From a virus: a stretch of 25,101 nucleotides of DNA. Position numbers and translations under genes: made by a program. The notes under the pieces were generated by a model. The model had not been told where the DNA came from. It did not search any database and saw only the letters and a program-made list of their open reading frames with translations. The stretch spans positions 1-25,101 of the IMG/VR virus record IMGVR_UViG_3300023196_000549. The stretch is one strand, 5' to 3'. The first letter of the stretch is position 1; each line of letters starts with the position of its first letter. Positions 4,986 through 25,091 of this stretch are shown piece by piece.

Positions 4986-6749
4986 TTATGCTTGACAAGC
5001 CAGACATTCTTCTTCGTCTTTTTTGATGTCTGAAAAATCACTTAATTTATCTAACTTCACTTTCGAAGCAATATTTTCTGCTCGATGTGAAACTTCCGTT
5101 CTTAAATAGTAAAGTCCTTTACAACCACTTTCCCATGCTCTCATGTGTGCTGACTGTACATACTTCTTCGATGCTCCTGCTGGAAAAAACAAATTTAATG
5201 ATTGACCTTGGTCTAAGTAAGCTTGTCTTTGTCCACCAAGTTCAACCAATCTCATTTGGTCTAACTCAACAGCAGTTTTGAATACTTCTTTAGTTTCATC
5301 ATCTAAAAAATCAAGATGATGTATAGAACCTGCATTAGTAACAATACCTGTCCAAACTTCAGCGTTATTCATTTTGTGTTTTTCAAGTATCTGTTCAAGA
5401 TACTTATTTTTCATTAAATGCGAACCTGCTCTAGTTCTATGTGTATATGCATTTGCTTTATTAGGTTCAATAGATGGTGATGTTCCTACTATCATTGAAC
5501 TATTAGCATTAGGTGCAATTGCAAGACAATGAGCATTTCGTCTTCCGGTGCCTTCCATATCTGGTGCAACACCCTTTTCTTTTCCTAAGAGTACAGTTTG
5601 TTCGTCTGCTTCTTTTCTTATCCAAGAAAATATTTCTTTATTAATATGTCCTGATTTTTCAAATGGTATCATATGTTTTTGTAAATAGGAATGATAGCCC
5701 ATAGCACCAAGTCCAAGACTTCTTTCTTGTGTTGCAGAAAATTTTGCTCTTGATAAATCATCTGGTGCATTATCTATAAAGAATTGTAATACATTATCTA
5801 AAAATGTAATAAGGTCTTTTACAATATTTGAATCTTTATAATCATCGTACTTTTCTAAGTTAAGAGATGATAAACAACAAACTGCTGTTCTATCTTCACT
5901 AGTAGGTAAATGAATTTCGTTGCATAGATTTGAACCATGAATCTTTAGTCCTTTATCTTTTAGTGCCTTTGGCATTTTATCATTTGCAGTATCAATGAAG
6001 TTGACATAAGGTTCGCCTGTTCTAAATCTTGTTTCTAAAATTTGTTCCCATAACTTTCTTGCCTTAACAACTTCTCTAACAGTACCATCATGTGGGTCAA
6101 TAAGTTCCCAATCTAAACCTTGTTTAACTGCATCCATAAATTTATTTGTAACATTAACTGCATTATGTAAGTTTAGACACTTACGACCAATGTCACCAGT
6201 TGGAATACGAATTGTTAAGAACTCTGCAATGTCTGGGTGTGATACATCTAAGTAAGCCGCATAACTTCCTTTTCTAGTTCTACCTTGACGATACGCTAGC
6301 ATATCTGCATCTACTGTATGCATAAATGGTAATGGGCCTGGTGCAACATCTGATACAGAACGAACGCCTGACCAATGTCCACCAACTCCACCACCTTTAA
6401 CAGACAACCATCTAAGTTCTGATGTGTGAGAAATTAATCCTTCTAATGTATCTGGTACATAAGTTAAAAAACAAGAAATGGGTAATGCCTTTGGTTTTTT
6501 GTTTGGAAGAGGTGCATTTGATAAAACTGGCGATGCAAACATAAACCAACCTTTGGATGCGTAATCGTAAATTCTTTGTGCAAGTTCTCTGTCACCATAA
6601 CAGTAGGCGTTTGATGCTCTTGCTAGTGCGTATTGTGGAGAAGGTTCATCATCTAAACAATAATAATCTTTTAAAAGTTTCTGTGCTTGGTCTGAAAAGT
6701 TTTGGTCTCTGTCGGTGTCGATTTTGATGTTACAATATTGTTTTTTCAT
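4986..6749 (-). CDS. nrdA: Ribonucleoside-diphosphate reductase alpha subunit, class Ia
   Basis: 587 residues, complete in its catalytic core. Active-site Cys pair: Cys93 (PISCFL) and Cys291 (AVCCLSSLNL). The thiyl-radical loop is SNLCNEIHLPT with Asn274, Cys276 and Glu278. The radical-transfer Tyr pair is 547/548 in GLYYLRTE. The C-terminal redox tail is ECLACQA (Cys582, Cys585), the pair that a glutaredoxin reduces. It is much shorter than E. coli NrdA (761), mainly because the N-terminal ATP-cone is absent, so dATP feedback through that site is not expected. Its start overlaps the end of the radical SAM gene by 20 bases, with a GAGGG ribosome site. Partner of the Grx-NrdB protein encoded next. 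Confidence 0.95.
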   Translation of the reverse strand: MKKQYCNIKIDTDRDQNFSDQAQKLLKDYYCLDDEPSPQYALARASNAYCYGDRELAQRIYDYASKGWFMFASPVLSNAPLPNKKPKALPISCFLTYVPDTLEGLISHTSELRWLSVKGGGVGGHWSGVRSVSDVAPGPLPFMHTVDADMLAYRQGRTRKGSYAAYLDVSHPDIAEFLTIRIPTGDIGRKCLNLHNAVNVTNKFMDAVKQGLDWELIDPHDGTVREVVKARKLWEQILETRFRTGEPYVNFIDTANDKMPKALKDKGLKIHGSNLCNEIHLPTSEDRTAVCCLSSLNLEKYDDYKDSNIVKDLITFLDNVLQFFIDNAPDDLSRAKFSATQERSLGLGAMGYHSYLQKHMIPFEKSGHINKEIFSWIRKEADEQTVLLGKEKGVAPDMEGTGRRNAHCLAIAPNANSSMIVGTSPSIEPNKANAYTHRTRAGSHLMKNKYLEQILEKHKMNNAEVWTGIVTNAGSIHHLDFLDDETKEVFKTAVELDQMRLVELGGQRQAYLDQGQSLNLFFPAGASKKYVQSAHMRAWESGCKGLYYLRTEVSHRAENIASKVKLDKLSDFSDIKKDEEECLACQA

Positions 6750-7821
6750 TTTTCCCTCTTCTGTGCGATGTCAACGCTTGTATATATAAGATTCCTTTTT
6801 TATACTCATCATCGTTAGTTTCTTTCAATAATTCATTTCGTATCAAGTCATTAGGTATATAAATCATGTCTTCTTTGTTCGGTAAATTCTTTATCGATAA
6901 AGATGCTGGACTATATACAGGTTCATAATTAACTCTAAAATCTTTATAGTATTCTTCTATTTCTTTCAAGTCAAATGCATTTAGTACACTCACAGTACAA
7001 TTAATCATCATAACATTGTCTTTCATAATCTCTAAGTTTTTTTCAAACTCTTTTACATCTATGGGATATCTAATAAATTCAAGTTTATCACCAAAGTGGT
7101 CACAAGAAACAATAAGTTTTAGTTTCTTAAATTTTCTATCAAGTTCTTTTAATGACCATTTTTTATATTCTATTTGTGTCAAGTTAGAACATATTTCTAT
7201 TTCAATCTTTTGTGCATCGTGCCAGACTATCTTATCTAAGAACTGCCACATTCTATCTAGTAAAACAGGCTCTCCACCAAATATTTTAATCTTTTTTACT
7301 TTGTCAAGATTGTCTAAAATATTTTGATTAAATGTATCAACCTCTGTTGATGATACATTTGTCACCCATTCTCTTTCAAATTCTGCAAGACCTAAATCAT
7401 TCCATGTATCTACTAAGTTTGCAGCTTTTAATTCTTGTCTTCTTGTCGATGAATCATAAGGACGACACATATAACATCCAAGATTACAACGACTACCAAA
7501 ATTTTTTAACTTTGTAATAACATTGTTAACTTCTATATTATTTTCTGTGATATTATTAAAATGAGTTCTATGACTAGAACCTGTTCGTTTTTCACTTTCA
7601 TAACATCCTTCACAACCTTGTATCTTTTTACCTGATAACATATCATTACGAATTTCTTCCATTGCATCTGATAAAAAATAATCAAATGGTAGTGTGTTTG
7701 TTGTATTCATGTAAGATATTGTTTTATTAATATCTGCATGACAACACAATCTATAACGATTTGCATTATCAGAATAAATTTCATCAAAGGCCTTTACACA
7801 ATAAGTCAAACTTTTTTCCAT
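6730..7821 (-). CDS. Twitch-type radical SAM protein
   Basis: 363 residues. The radical SAM cluster is CNLGCYMC (Cys112, Cys116, Cys119, CxxxCxxC), followed by the FGGEP motif (in KIKIFGGEP) for SAM binding. The N-terminal 110 residues hold further Cys: YCVKAF (Cys8), LCCHAD (Cys26, Cys27) and GCEGCYESE (Cys70, Cys73) followed by TGSSHR. This matches the phage 'twitch domain' radical SAM family, in which extra Cys may bind an auxiliary Fe-S cluster. Members are frequent in marine T4-like phages; their reaction is not established as far as I know. It lies between primase and nrdA, overlapping both, hinting at a DNA or nucleotide-related reaction, but peptide modification is equally possible. 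Confidence 0.85.
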   Translation of the reverse strand: MEKSLTYCVKAFDEIYSDNANRYRLCCHADINKTISYMNTTNTLPFDYFLSDAMEEIRNDMLSGKKIQGCEGCYESEKRTGSSHRTHFNNITENNIEVNNVITKLKNFGSRCNLGCYMCRPYDSSTRRQELKAANLVDTWNDLGLAEFEREWVTNVSSTEVDTFNQNILDNLDKVKKIKIFGGEPVLLDRMWQFLDKIVWHDAQKIEIEICSNLTQIEYKKWSLKELDRKFKKLKLIVSCDHFGDKLEFIRYPIDVKEFEKNLEIMKDNVMMINCTVSVLNAFDLKEIEEYYKDFRVNYEPVYSPASLSIKNLPNKEDMIYIPNDLIRNELLKETNDDEYKKGILYIQALTSHRRGKNEKTIL

Positions 7822-13216: not shown

Positions 13217-13651
13217 CTATTCTATTTTTGCGAAAATCTTATAACAATTTGCCTCTGTCATTTCATAACTAAGTTTAAGTGATAATCCACCTTCCACTTG
13301 ATTAGAAATGCCATCATCGTTTAGAAACTCATCATGAGGTGTGTTTTCATCTTTTCCGAATCTTCCACCAAACAATGACAAAGGTAGTGAGTATGAACCT
13401 GTGTTGCCTTCAAACATAGGTACTTCACCGAATTGTAATCCAACTCTCATCAATTTGCTTCTTAACATTGATATCGCATCTTCAACAATTTTAGTTTGTT
13501 CGTTTACGATAGCACCAACAAATGCATTTAATCTTTGTATTACTACTGGGTTTGCAAGTGCAGCTGGATTAATTTGATTGTCCATTTGGAACCCTTGATG
13601 TTGTGTACCAACGCCTGCAGCTTCATCGATGTATTTTTTAAAATTTTTCAT
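13217..13651 (-). CDS. Conserved marine-phage hypothetical (144 aa)
   Basis: 144 residues, beginning MKNFKKYIDEAAGVGTQHQG, a 'MKxFxxYI(D/E)EA' opening that is frequent among T4-like marine phage virion-associated proteins. The helical N-terminal half (NAFVGAIVNEQTKIVEDAIS) is followed by a mixed part with SYSLPLSLFGGRFGKDENTP. Not assigned to a function. The 62-base gap upstream carries a perfect 7-bp stem-loop (13679-13698), so this gene may head its own transcript. Confidence 0.65.
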   Translation of the reverse strand: MKNFKKYIDEAAGVGTQHQGFQMDNQINPAALANPVVIQRLNAFVGAIVNEQTKIVEDAISMLRSKLMRVGLQFGEVPMFEGNTGSYSLPLSLFGGRFGKDENTPHDEFLNDDGISNQVEGGLSLKLSYEMTEANCYKIFAKIE

Positions 13652-22912: not shown

Positions 22913-24802
22913 TTATCCCTTCATCAAGTCCGTTACGGATTTCGTACTCCAAAATTTACAAGACCAGTAACCTGCTGTTGTTTTGTCAGTCTTTTGGTCA
23001 CAGTTATGTCTTGCTCTAAATGAGGCTCTTCTTTTTGGGTCATCTCTTTTAATAGACATATTTGGGTCACCAAACTCTACTTTGACGACATTACCTTTAT
23101 CATTTTTTACATAAACTTTATATTTTTTTCTATCACCTGTTGTAGGATTATTAAGTTTAACTTTTCTTCCTTGATACTCTGCATCTTCGGTTATTTCACC
23201 CCATGCATTTTTTAACATAAATTGTCCAAAGGAATCTCTTTTTTCTTTGATAGGTTTAACTACAACTGCTTCAGCAGTATCACATTCCATGCAACAATCT
23301 GGTGTACCACAATTAGTGTGAACTGGTTCAATTTTTTCAAGTAATTTATTTTTAGTTTCAGTTAATTTAATGTACCAGTCATTACCATATTTTAACTCAT
23401 ACTTCTCATGAATTTTCTCGTCTTTATACCATTGTTCAATTTCTTCTTTTGTAATTTTTTTCTTTTCATCTGGTGCAGAATATGGGTCAATCTTTTTTGT
23501 ATGGTCTGCATAGTCTTTACCAATATCGTATGCTTCTTTTGTTCCTCTTGCTTTTGCAGCTAAATCTTTATCAGCTCCACCCCATGTTCCTTTTGATTTA
23601 GTTACAAAAGAATTAACTCTTGCAAAGGCCCATTGTTGTGGGGTAGTACCAGGTCTATGACCAGTTCGCCACGCAGCCATTCCTCTATTGTAAACTTGTT
23701 TTAATATTCCGTAGGAAATACCTGACTTTTCAGCCTTCTTTACTAAACCTTCAATCTTTTCTTGTAAGTCTTTGTCCATAGTTATTGGCATGTCTTCACC
23801 GAACATTTGCTTATATTTCTTAGTATGTTTACTTGGTTTAGTTTTTCCTTTTGCATCACCTGGTGCTGGAGCATATGCAGCTGGATTATCATCATCCATT
23901 TTTGAACCCTTTTTAAAGTGAGCATCTCTAGCATCTTTACTTTTTTTAGAAACACCTGCAAAGTATTTCGCAGGTTGTGTACCTTTTTTGTCTTTAACAT
24001 CTGCATCTTGTTTAACTTCATGCAACCATGCTTTGTGAACTTTACCATTTTTATCATTAAATGAAATATAGTTTGTTCCTCTTTGAATAATTTTTCCTTC
24101 AATTCCTTTTGCTTCAATTAAATCACCGATGTTCCATATTTGGCCTGTAAGATAATTGTCTCGTAACTGTTCGTATTCGTCCATTACACCCATATCTTTT
24201 TGTTCTCTTATACCCATGTATTTTCTTACATCTCTGAATAGTTTTTTTCCGTCTTTAAATCCTCTAGGTAAACCATCTGCAAAATCATCATATTCACCTT
24301 TGTGAGCATGATATCTCATTTTACTAGCAGACATACCTGATACACCTTCTGCGTCTGGGTCTCTCTCTCCAGCAGATACAACATTAATATTATCAAACTT
24401 ATAGAATCCGTGTCGTTTCCCTTCAACACCATTATACTTTTTTAATAATGTACTAAACTCTTTTACTCTATCTGAACCTGCAACCATTGTTAAATTTGTA
24501 AACCCTTGGTCATATAATTTAACTGCAATATTAATTGCTGTTATAGCAGTCTTGTCAGCAATAATTGCTCTTTTGTGTTTAGAAAACATCTTTCTCATAT
24601 ATGCAATTTTCAATGCATGAGGAAGTGGGTCTTTCATTGGATTTTGTGAAAAACTTGGATAGATTCTATATTCGTCTGAACCTGCAACTTGTTTAGTCTT
24701 ATCAATTAATTTTTCATGACCAGTTGTTGGTGGATTAAATCTACCAAATGCAAACACTACATTTTTACCTGGTGCTTCAAATACATTAAATTTTTTAATC
24801 AT
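22913..24802 (-). CDS. Multidomain protein with N-terminal nucleotidyltransferase domain
   Basis: 629 residues. Residues 14-180: a cytidylyltransferase/NMNAT-type fold, with AFGRFNPPTTGHEKLI (TTGH 26-29, the T/HxGH motif), MVAGSDRVKEF and GMSASKMR (157-163, the ISSTxxR position). About 205-265: a small KOW/SH3-like domain (GDLIEAKGIEGKIIQRGTNY). About 274-335: a Lys-rich module with HFKKGSKMDDDNPAAYAPAP. About 345-410: GILKQVYNRGMAAWRTGHRP and TPQQWAFARVNSF. About 498-507: Cys cluster CGTPDCCMEC. The C-terminus: FGDPNMSIKRDDPKRRASFR with Cys601 and Cys615. Marine T4-like phages carry such mosaics. Substrate unknown; the nucleotidyltransferase may act on NMN, CTP-linked sugars or a protein. 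It overlaps the upstream gene by 8 bases. Confidence 0.75.
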   Translation of the reverse strand: MIKKFNVFEAPGKNVVFAFGRFNPPTTGHEKLIDKTKQVAGSDEYRIYPSFSQNPMKDPLPHALKIAYMRKMFSKHKRAIIADKTAITAINIAVKLYDQGFTNLTMVAGSDRVKEFSTLLKKYNGVEGKRHGFYKFDNINVVSAGERDPDAEGVSGMSASKMRYHAHKGEYDDFADGLPRGFKDGKKLFRDVRKYMGIREQKDMGVMDEYEQLRDNYLTGQIWNIGDLIEAKGIEGKIIQRGTNYISFNDKNGKVHKAWLHEVKQDADVKDKKGTQPAKYFAGVSKKSKDARDAHFKKGSKMDDDNPAAYAPAPGDAKGKTKPSKHTKKYKQMFGEDMPITMDKDLQEKIEGLVKKAEKSGISYGILKQVYNRGMAAWRTGHRPGTTPQQWAFARVNSFVTKSKGTWGGADKDLAAKARGTKEAYDIGKDYADHTKKIDPYSAPDEKKKITKEEIEQWYKDEKIHEKYELKYGNDWYIKLTETKNKLLEKIEPVHTNCGTPDCCMECDTAEAVVVKPIKEKRDSFGQFMLKNAWGEITEDAEYQGRKVKLNNPTTGDRKKYKVYVKNDKGNVVKVEFGDPNMSIKRDDPKRRASFRARHNCDQKTDKTTAGYWSCKFWSTKSVTDLMKG

Positions 24803-25091
24803 CTTTTTTCTCTGGTCTCTTTGGATGAAAATTTAACTTAATAATCTTGGCATCTTTTTTTACTGACTTTCCGTCAAGTAAAACTTCTATTGGATAAGGA
24901 ACAAGTTCATTGGCCCAATATGCGATTGAATAACTACCATCTTTGTTTAATCTTACAAGTAATCCTCTATCATAATCATCTTTATCTTGTTTCAAAACAT
25001 TAAGTTTACCAGTCTGTAACATCAAGTCTGCTCGACTATCAGGCACATTTTCTTTCAATGTTCCGATAAATTTAGTAAATTTTTTAATCAT
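24795..25091 (-). CDS. Small hypothetical protein (98 aa)
   Basis: 98 residues, beginning MIKKFTKFIGTLKENVPDSR. The first residues resemble the start of the next protein (MIKKFNVFEAPG), a shared short leader also common in marine phage head proteins. A compact beta-rich body (GLLVRLNKDGSYSIAYWANE; VPYPIEVLLDGKSVKKDAKI) is followed by a basic tail. Function unknown. It overlaps the nucleotidyltransferase gene by 8 bases. The ATG is 10 bases from the window edge, so the upstream context is not visible. Confidence 0.65.
   Translation of the reverse strand: MIKKFTKFIGTLKENVPDSRADLMLQTGKLNVLKQDKDDYDRGLLVRLNKDGSYSIAYWANELVPYPIEVLLDGKSVKKDAKIIKLNFHPKRPEKKDD

Follow-up and report, generated by a model that had tools for sequence, protein, structure and literature searches.

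The adenylyltransferase-like protein described here is probably carried in the head of a marine T4-related phage. The gene lies on the minus strand at 22913..24802 of the window, that is, the whole 25,101-base stretch of an IMG/VR-type virus record that was analysed. The ORF listing and translation match these coordinates exactly, and PHROG matches cover the encoded multi-module protein of 629 aa. We put at roughly 60% the probability that it is a capsid-loaded, probably injected, head-cargo enzyme with an N-terminal leader derived from the T4-type capsid targeting sequence. To judge from sequence, this leader gives the strongest indication of how the protein would be brought into the head. 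It would recruit the enzyme into the prohead core, and a gp21-type protease would trim it in those relatives that have an L/I-x-E site. The enzyme would then be enclosed with the DNA and enter the host, where the injected member of the NMNAT/NadD/PPAT superfamily may act early on a pool of nucleotides or cofactors. What we add is the likely address label and the proposal that several cargo enzymes carry it, both inferred from sequence and, for the most part, one proteome. In the open-access PMC papers searched, including the available parts of PMC9026906 and PMC5694885, we found no paper linking the capsid targeting sequence to cyanophage cargo.

The window belongs to a Kyanoviridae-type phage close to pelagiphage HTVC008M and methylophage Melnitz, because its gene order is the same in HTVC008M and Melnitz has a similar block. 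Downstream on the minus strand are genes of tail-fibre or structural type, a 5'-3' deoxyribonucleotidase-like gene, a tail assembly chaperone, a primase and two ribonucleotide reductase subunits. A radical-SAM-like gene (6730-7821; phrog_14086, 1.9e-10) is located between the primase and ribonucleotide reductase genes.

PHROG matches, models and a fold search place a nucleotidyltransferase domain of the HIGH superfamily at about residues 13-198 (24209..24766, minus strand, as are the other features of the protein); PHROG cytidyltransferase families match it at 4e-105 and 1e-66. Nucleotidyltransferases of this superfamily carry motifs of the (H/T)xGH and (S/T)xx(R) types. The TxGH and S-x-S-x-x-R type motifs present here are ones that we take to be equivalent to those of PPAT, NadD, NMNAT and NadM. 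Sequence and alignment identify them as TTGH (residues 26-29, 24716..24727) and GMSASKMR (residues 156-163, 24314..24337), and the alignment adds GSDR (residues 109-112, 24467..24478). The original prediction had named TTGH, GMSASKMR and the Cys cluster CGTPDCCMEC in this 629-aa ORF, and all three are present in the translation. T26, G28, H29, G109, D111, R112, G156-K161 and R163 are invariant in the 34 aligned relatives, so that TxGH and GMSASKxR occur in all 34 rows, and S110 is retained in 32. Because these catalytic-motif residues are invariant or nearly so, the motifs are not a product of chance; loss of the key His and Ser residues, the observation that had been named as counting against an active enzyme, was not seen.

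The AF2 model of the domain is mostly near pLDDT 90, and the predicted model of residues 1-270 has the Rossmann-type fold common to PPAT, NadD and NMNAT (Z 14.1, rmsd 2.9 over 150 residues for the best of the 50 matches listed). The closest solved folds among these 50 are PPAT, NadD, archaeal NMNAT and NadM (Z 12.4-14.1), whose scores are too close together to tell the substrate. The likeness to these enzymes lies in the fold, with identities of 10-17%. Matches in the viral fold library were mainly annotated cytidyltransferases, and no PDB sequence matched a profile of residues 1-270 at E 0.1. The gathering score of Pfam PF01467 (21 bits) was missed by the window protein (18.8 bits) and by its relatives in S-SCSM1 (16.3) and HTVC008M (20.4), and was passed by those in S-SM1 (30.4), Melnitz (27.4) and S-CREM2 (22.3). 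Membership of the NMNAT or NadD families was rejected, since the NCBIfam equivalog cut-offs are far off (23 of 341 bits for TIGR01526, 16.6 of 112 bits for TIGR00482), and the NMNAT identity first proposed was thus a guess. A complete nicotinamide salvage route was also rejected; a NadV-type NAPRTase was found in one of 11 phage records (jumbo phage KP13-7) and in none of nine Kyanoviridae records. Our own guess is an early adenylyltransferase acting on a host pool of NMN, NaMN or a related compound, with NMN or NaMN as the substrate only a tentative choice at somewhat under an even chance.

The multi-module make-up proposed earlier was borne out, since the enzyme domain is followed by a small beta-barrel, DUF5824, a helical hairpin and a C-terminal module. 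The barrel (about residues 207-266, 24005..24184) is SH3-like by our reading of the AF2 models and has a weak L21e-like match (E 0.4). A repeat of this region in one relative (L040), hinted at by overlapping BLAST pieces, was absent from the alignment. DUF5824 (Pfam PF19141, 75.2 bits against a gathering cut-off of 25) covers residues 277-412 (23567..23974). Its linker, residues 301-335 (KMDDDNPAAY-PAPGD...MFGE), is nearly invariant in relatives, yet its AF2 pLDDT is below 50. The hairpin (residues 452-491, 23330..23449) is modelled at a pLDDT of about 88, and residues 493-629 have no confident AF2 model. The Cys-rich stretch CGTPDCCMEC (residues 498-507, 23282..23311) had been put forward as a module of its own; CGTPDCC is found in 5 of the 34 alignment rows, and we rejected the cluster as a conserved metal site. 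A putative prohead-protease site, I-T-E (residues 537-539, 23186..23194), precedes the C-terminal module, giving the internal site suggested earlier a candidate and no firmer standing.

The C-terminal module (about residues 539-617, 22952..23188) matches phrog_7595 at 1.5e-12 and resembles DUF5754, whose gathering score it misses (Pfam PF19058, 15.2 vs 27.4 bits). Its description as a domain typical of head-associated proteins did not hold, phrog_7595 being a family with no assigned function that, of 12 phage records searched, was found in two, HTVC008M and Melnitz. DUF5824 was likewise found in those two (of 13 records). Neither was found in the three phages that have virion proteomes (S-SM1, S-SCSM1 and S-CREM2), and both were rejected as general head markers. 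HTVC008M and 22 of 80 IMG/VR loci (the best 80 of 363) encode the C-terminal module as an ORF of its own, and in two loci (L018 and L047) DUF5824 is on another nearby gene; by sequence comparison, modules move between genes. Internal leader-like stretches were rejected as protease junctions, their profile scores in the 34 proteins being mostly inside the shuffled null (99% level 9.6); the one row above it, L056 at residue 543 (score 15.3), is a candidate junction.

Residues 1-9 of the window protein, MIKKFNVFE (24776..24802), resemble a diverged capsid targeting tag in the translation and alignment. This leader was overlooked in the original prediction. According to the available part of a review (PMC9026906), positions 4 and 7 of T4 IPIII drive targeting, positions 8 and 10 drive processing, and gp21 cleaves after L/I-x-E. 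The window leader, MIKKFNVFEA, has Phe at both targeting positions, F5 and F8, which are three apart. F5 is invariant in 34 of 34 alignment rows, and position 8 is Y in 23, F in 6 and L in 5. The leader has no L/I-x-E site, reading V-F-E with its Glu two positions early, and no L/I-x-E occurs in the protein before residue 198. Relatives with this type of leader start with MIKKFSLYEQP or IKKFSLFEVP, in which L-x-E is present, or MIKKFNAYEQP, in which it is absent. For the window protein itself, targeting appears plausible and trimming doubtful, and the case rests on the family.

The leaders of the relatives detected in virions are MKKFSAFLNEA (S-SM1), MKSFLQFLKEA (S-SCSM1) and MKNFSSFLTEA (S-CREM2), and those of other isolates are MKSFSKFFSEA (S-SCSM2R), MKKFSAFLTEA (P-SSM7), MAMRSFLTFLTEA (ACG-2014f) and MKGFSNFLIEA (S-H34). 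The T4 proteins ipII and ipIII start with MKTYQEFIAEA, and ipI with MKTFKEFTSTT. Many IMG/VR relatives have an L/I-x-E site in or just after the leader, and a gp21-type prohead protease is encoded in all 12 related or control records searched. The Syn1 enzyme has no leader (its adjoining next gene starts MRDFKKLREQA), the HTVC008M enzyme, starting MKTLKELLRKK, counts as an exception, and no leader is present on the homologues in jumbo phages 30-3 and KP13-7. Several observations suggest that the leader is more than the beginning of the enzyme sequence. It is disordered (the first 8-9 residues of the window protein in both models), and it lies well ahead of the enzyme domain in S-SM1 and S-SCSM1, whose Pfam matches start at residues 83 and 110. 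In the S-SCSM1 enzyme, residues 1-49 match the N-terminal 49 residues of the S-CREM2 kinase (36%, E 0.007), and residues 3-51 match positions 148-199 within the same kinase (40%, E 8e-07).

Comparable starts are found on other genes. The upstream 98-aa gene of the window (24795..25091, minus strand) starts MIKKFTKFIGTLKE, and its relative in locus L024 (MIKKFTKFIETLKE) matches motif B, defined below. A 144-aa gene of the same block (13217..13651, minus strand) starts MKNFKKYIDEAAG, a full-form leader that matches motif A, and has no PHROG or Pfam match; HTVC008M gp139 and Melnitz gene 27 have similar starts, MKSFKDFQ and MKNFKNHIAEE. PSSM7_194 of P-SSM7 (L099:4488-5006), near the enzyme gene, starts MKTYSQFIEEG, almost the T4 leader. 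The C-terminal end of S-SCSM1 ORF93 (L088:11627-11836), a 69-aa virion protein, is the leader-like RTFKEFLEYIE. S-CREM2 gp12 (L095:7704-10313, minus strand), annotated as a virion Cas9, has no Pfam match at E 0.01, matches phrog_3561 (function unknown) and carries PLRFASFMAEA, which resembles a leader, near residues 16-26.

Packaging of the virion enzyme is well supported for the protein's family by published detections, given here as in the available parts of the papers. PMC3037559, of 2010, reports T4-GC190 of S-SM1, described as a putative citidylyltransferase, from purified virions, and the gene SSM1_190 bears its number. S-SCSM1 ORF91 (PMC9602691) and S-CREM2 ORF154 (gp154; PMC10665884) were also detected in virions, the latter with only 3 unique peptides, and authors of virion proteome papers on relatives had already suggested injection. 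The prediction of a virion-packaged enzyme is thus well supported for the family; the claim that packaging would be new biology does not hold, because it is already in print in these three papers. The T4-GC190 homologue was undetected in an earlier S-PM2 virion study (cited in PMC3037559), and the S-CREM1 genome map lists an NMNAT, none being named among its 14 virion proteins in the available text (PMC9964418). An NMNAT reported from S-CBWM1 virions was set aside; it belongs to a different architecture that does not have this leader.

Motif A (^M.{0,6}[KR].[FY]..[FYLIVM][LIV].E) and motif B, which is one residue shorter, were fixed after the IMG/VR leaders had been viewed, with the T4 leader in mind, and before S-CREM2 was retrieved. 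The window leader matches neither. S-CREM2 (219 annotated CDS, virion list of 52 proteins) was scanned from all start codons for ORFs of at least 50 aa. Six matches were obtained, three of them at annotated CDS starts (motif A, 3/219): gp6, a SAM lyase (Pfam S-AdoMet_lyase, 2.3e-19); gp14, a kinase; and gp154, the homologue of the window enzyme. All three are non-structural members of the virion list (3/3, p=0.013), and the other three matches comprise two reverse ORFs that lack annotation and, for gp14, an in-frame start upstream of the annotated one. Shuffled N-termini gave a mean of 0.057 matches, with none of 2000 shuffles reaching three. Without gp154, which shares the family, the enrichment is 2/2 (p=0.054).

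A leader profile built from 19 IMG/VR leaders, in which the window's own leader scores low, placed seven virion proteins among the S-CREM2 top 10 (gp154, 6, 14, 137, 136, 84 and 13; p=0.002), gp154 partly through homology, together with three non-virion proteins, gp182 (second), gp33 and gp191. The 28 non-structural virion proteins outscored the 165 non-virion ones (p=0.001), and the 24 structural ones did not (p=0.10). In S-SCSM1, three of six motif matches were at CDS starts, those of ORF89 and ORF91, both virion proteins, and pebS, a non-virion false positive (2/3, p=0.08, for a virion set of 48 of 282 genes so marked in the record; the paper, in its available part, gives 45, PMC9602691). 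In 50 kb of the 168.9-kb T4 genome the motif picked out ipII, ipIII and, within gene 7, an internal start; it missed ipI, and alt is outside the scanned 50 kb. Among the IMG/VR relatives (the best 80 of 363, partly redundant), 34 match motif A, 15 motif B and 28 a looser pattern that keeps two hydrophobic positions, 24 of these 28 being of the window's KF..[FY]E type; three match none. Motif A also starts 34 of 1181 other ORFs (at least 80 aa) in those loci, 34/790 on the plus strand and 0/391 on the minus strand, and by eye these belong to several families.

It is possible that the protein is an ordinary cytoplasmic infection enzyme of NAD or cofactor metabolism, that its presence in virions is carry-over and that the leader is part of the enzyme's sequence. 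The authors of both the S-CREM2 and S-SCSM1 proteomes caution about carry-over (PMC10665884 and PMC9602691, available parts), which does happen in virion preparations, because a RegA-type repressor is present in the S-SCSM1 virion list; the gp154 peptides, moreover, are few. However, independent detection in the virions of three phages, the same leader on unrelated virion proteins, its distance from the enzyme domain and its absence from the jumbo-phage homologues make this explanation unlikely. The head-cargo reading has further points against it in the motif failure of the window's leader, the p values of 0.054 and 0.08, the S-PM2 and S-CREM1 results and the Syn1 and HTVC008M exceptions.

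The leader of the window branch might instead have decayed, the protein reaching the head via its added modules (DUF5824 and the C-terminal module) or not at all. The L/I-x-E site has been lost from the leader in the window clade, and among the records searched HTVC008M and Melnitz alone had the added modules. Nothing links these modules to heads, however, and the conservation of F5 and of Y, F or L at position 8 in every row argues for a retained leader, so we regard decay as improbable. A part in head structure or assembly, with the enzyme domain secondary, would fit the S-SCSM1 neighbours of ORF91 in the same helicase-to-primase block, of which 89, 90, 92, 93, 95 and 97 are annotated virion proteins. 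Against conserved catalytic motifs and a protein low in or missing from some virion proteomes (in their available parts), such a role is highly improbable, and the head-assembly function raised in the original prediction found no support.

As head cargo, the window protein would have counterparts in several known systems. The T4-GC190 cytidyltransferases (S-SM1 SSM1_190, S-SCSM1 ORF91 and S-CREM2 gp154) share a homologous enzyme domain, the same PHROG families and an N-terminal leader, and the gene block is common to the window, S-SM1 and S-SCSM1. However, at 387, 409 and 286 aa (S-SM1, S-SCSM1 and S-CREM2) they are shorter, they lack the DUF5824 and phrog_7595 modules, and their leader is full-form whereas that of the window is diverged. 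HTVC008M gp130 and gp131 and Melnitz gene 18 have the modules and synteny of the window, although HTVC008M differs in the start of gp130 and in its separate gene for the C-terminal module. T4 IPI, IPII and IPIII likewise begin with a short leader whose aromatic residues are three apart, as described in the available literature, but are small and basic, whereas the window cargo would be a large enzyme. Polyvalent proteins and MuF fusions are also multi-domain phage proteins thought to be injected (PMC9503650, available part); by Pfam the window protein has no MuF or portal fusion, and it has a separate short leader instead.

A broader proposal, for which we see the chances as evenly balanced, is that the Kyanoviridae use the T4-type targeting peptide as a general label for interchangeable injected proteins (adenylyltransferase, SAM lyase, kinase and several unknown families), and that the cargo of the window branch is a fusion of once-separate proteins, possibly recut by the prohead protease. 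Such a label would explain the SAM lyase, kinase and adenylyltransferase in cyanophage virion proteomes, which have no known packaging route. A label that predicts cargo would reduce the identification of what marine T4-related phages inject besides DNA to a genome scan and one proteomics test. If the general label is true, head cargo would be predictable from sequence across the marine T4-related phages.
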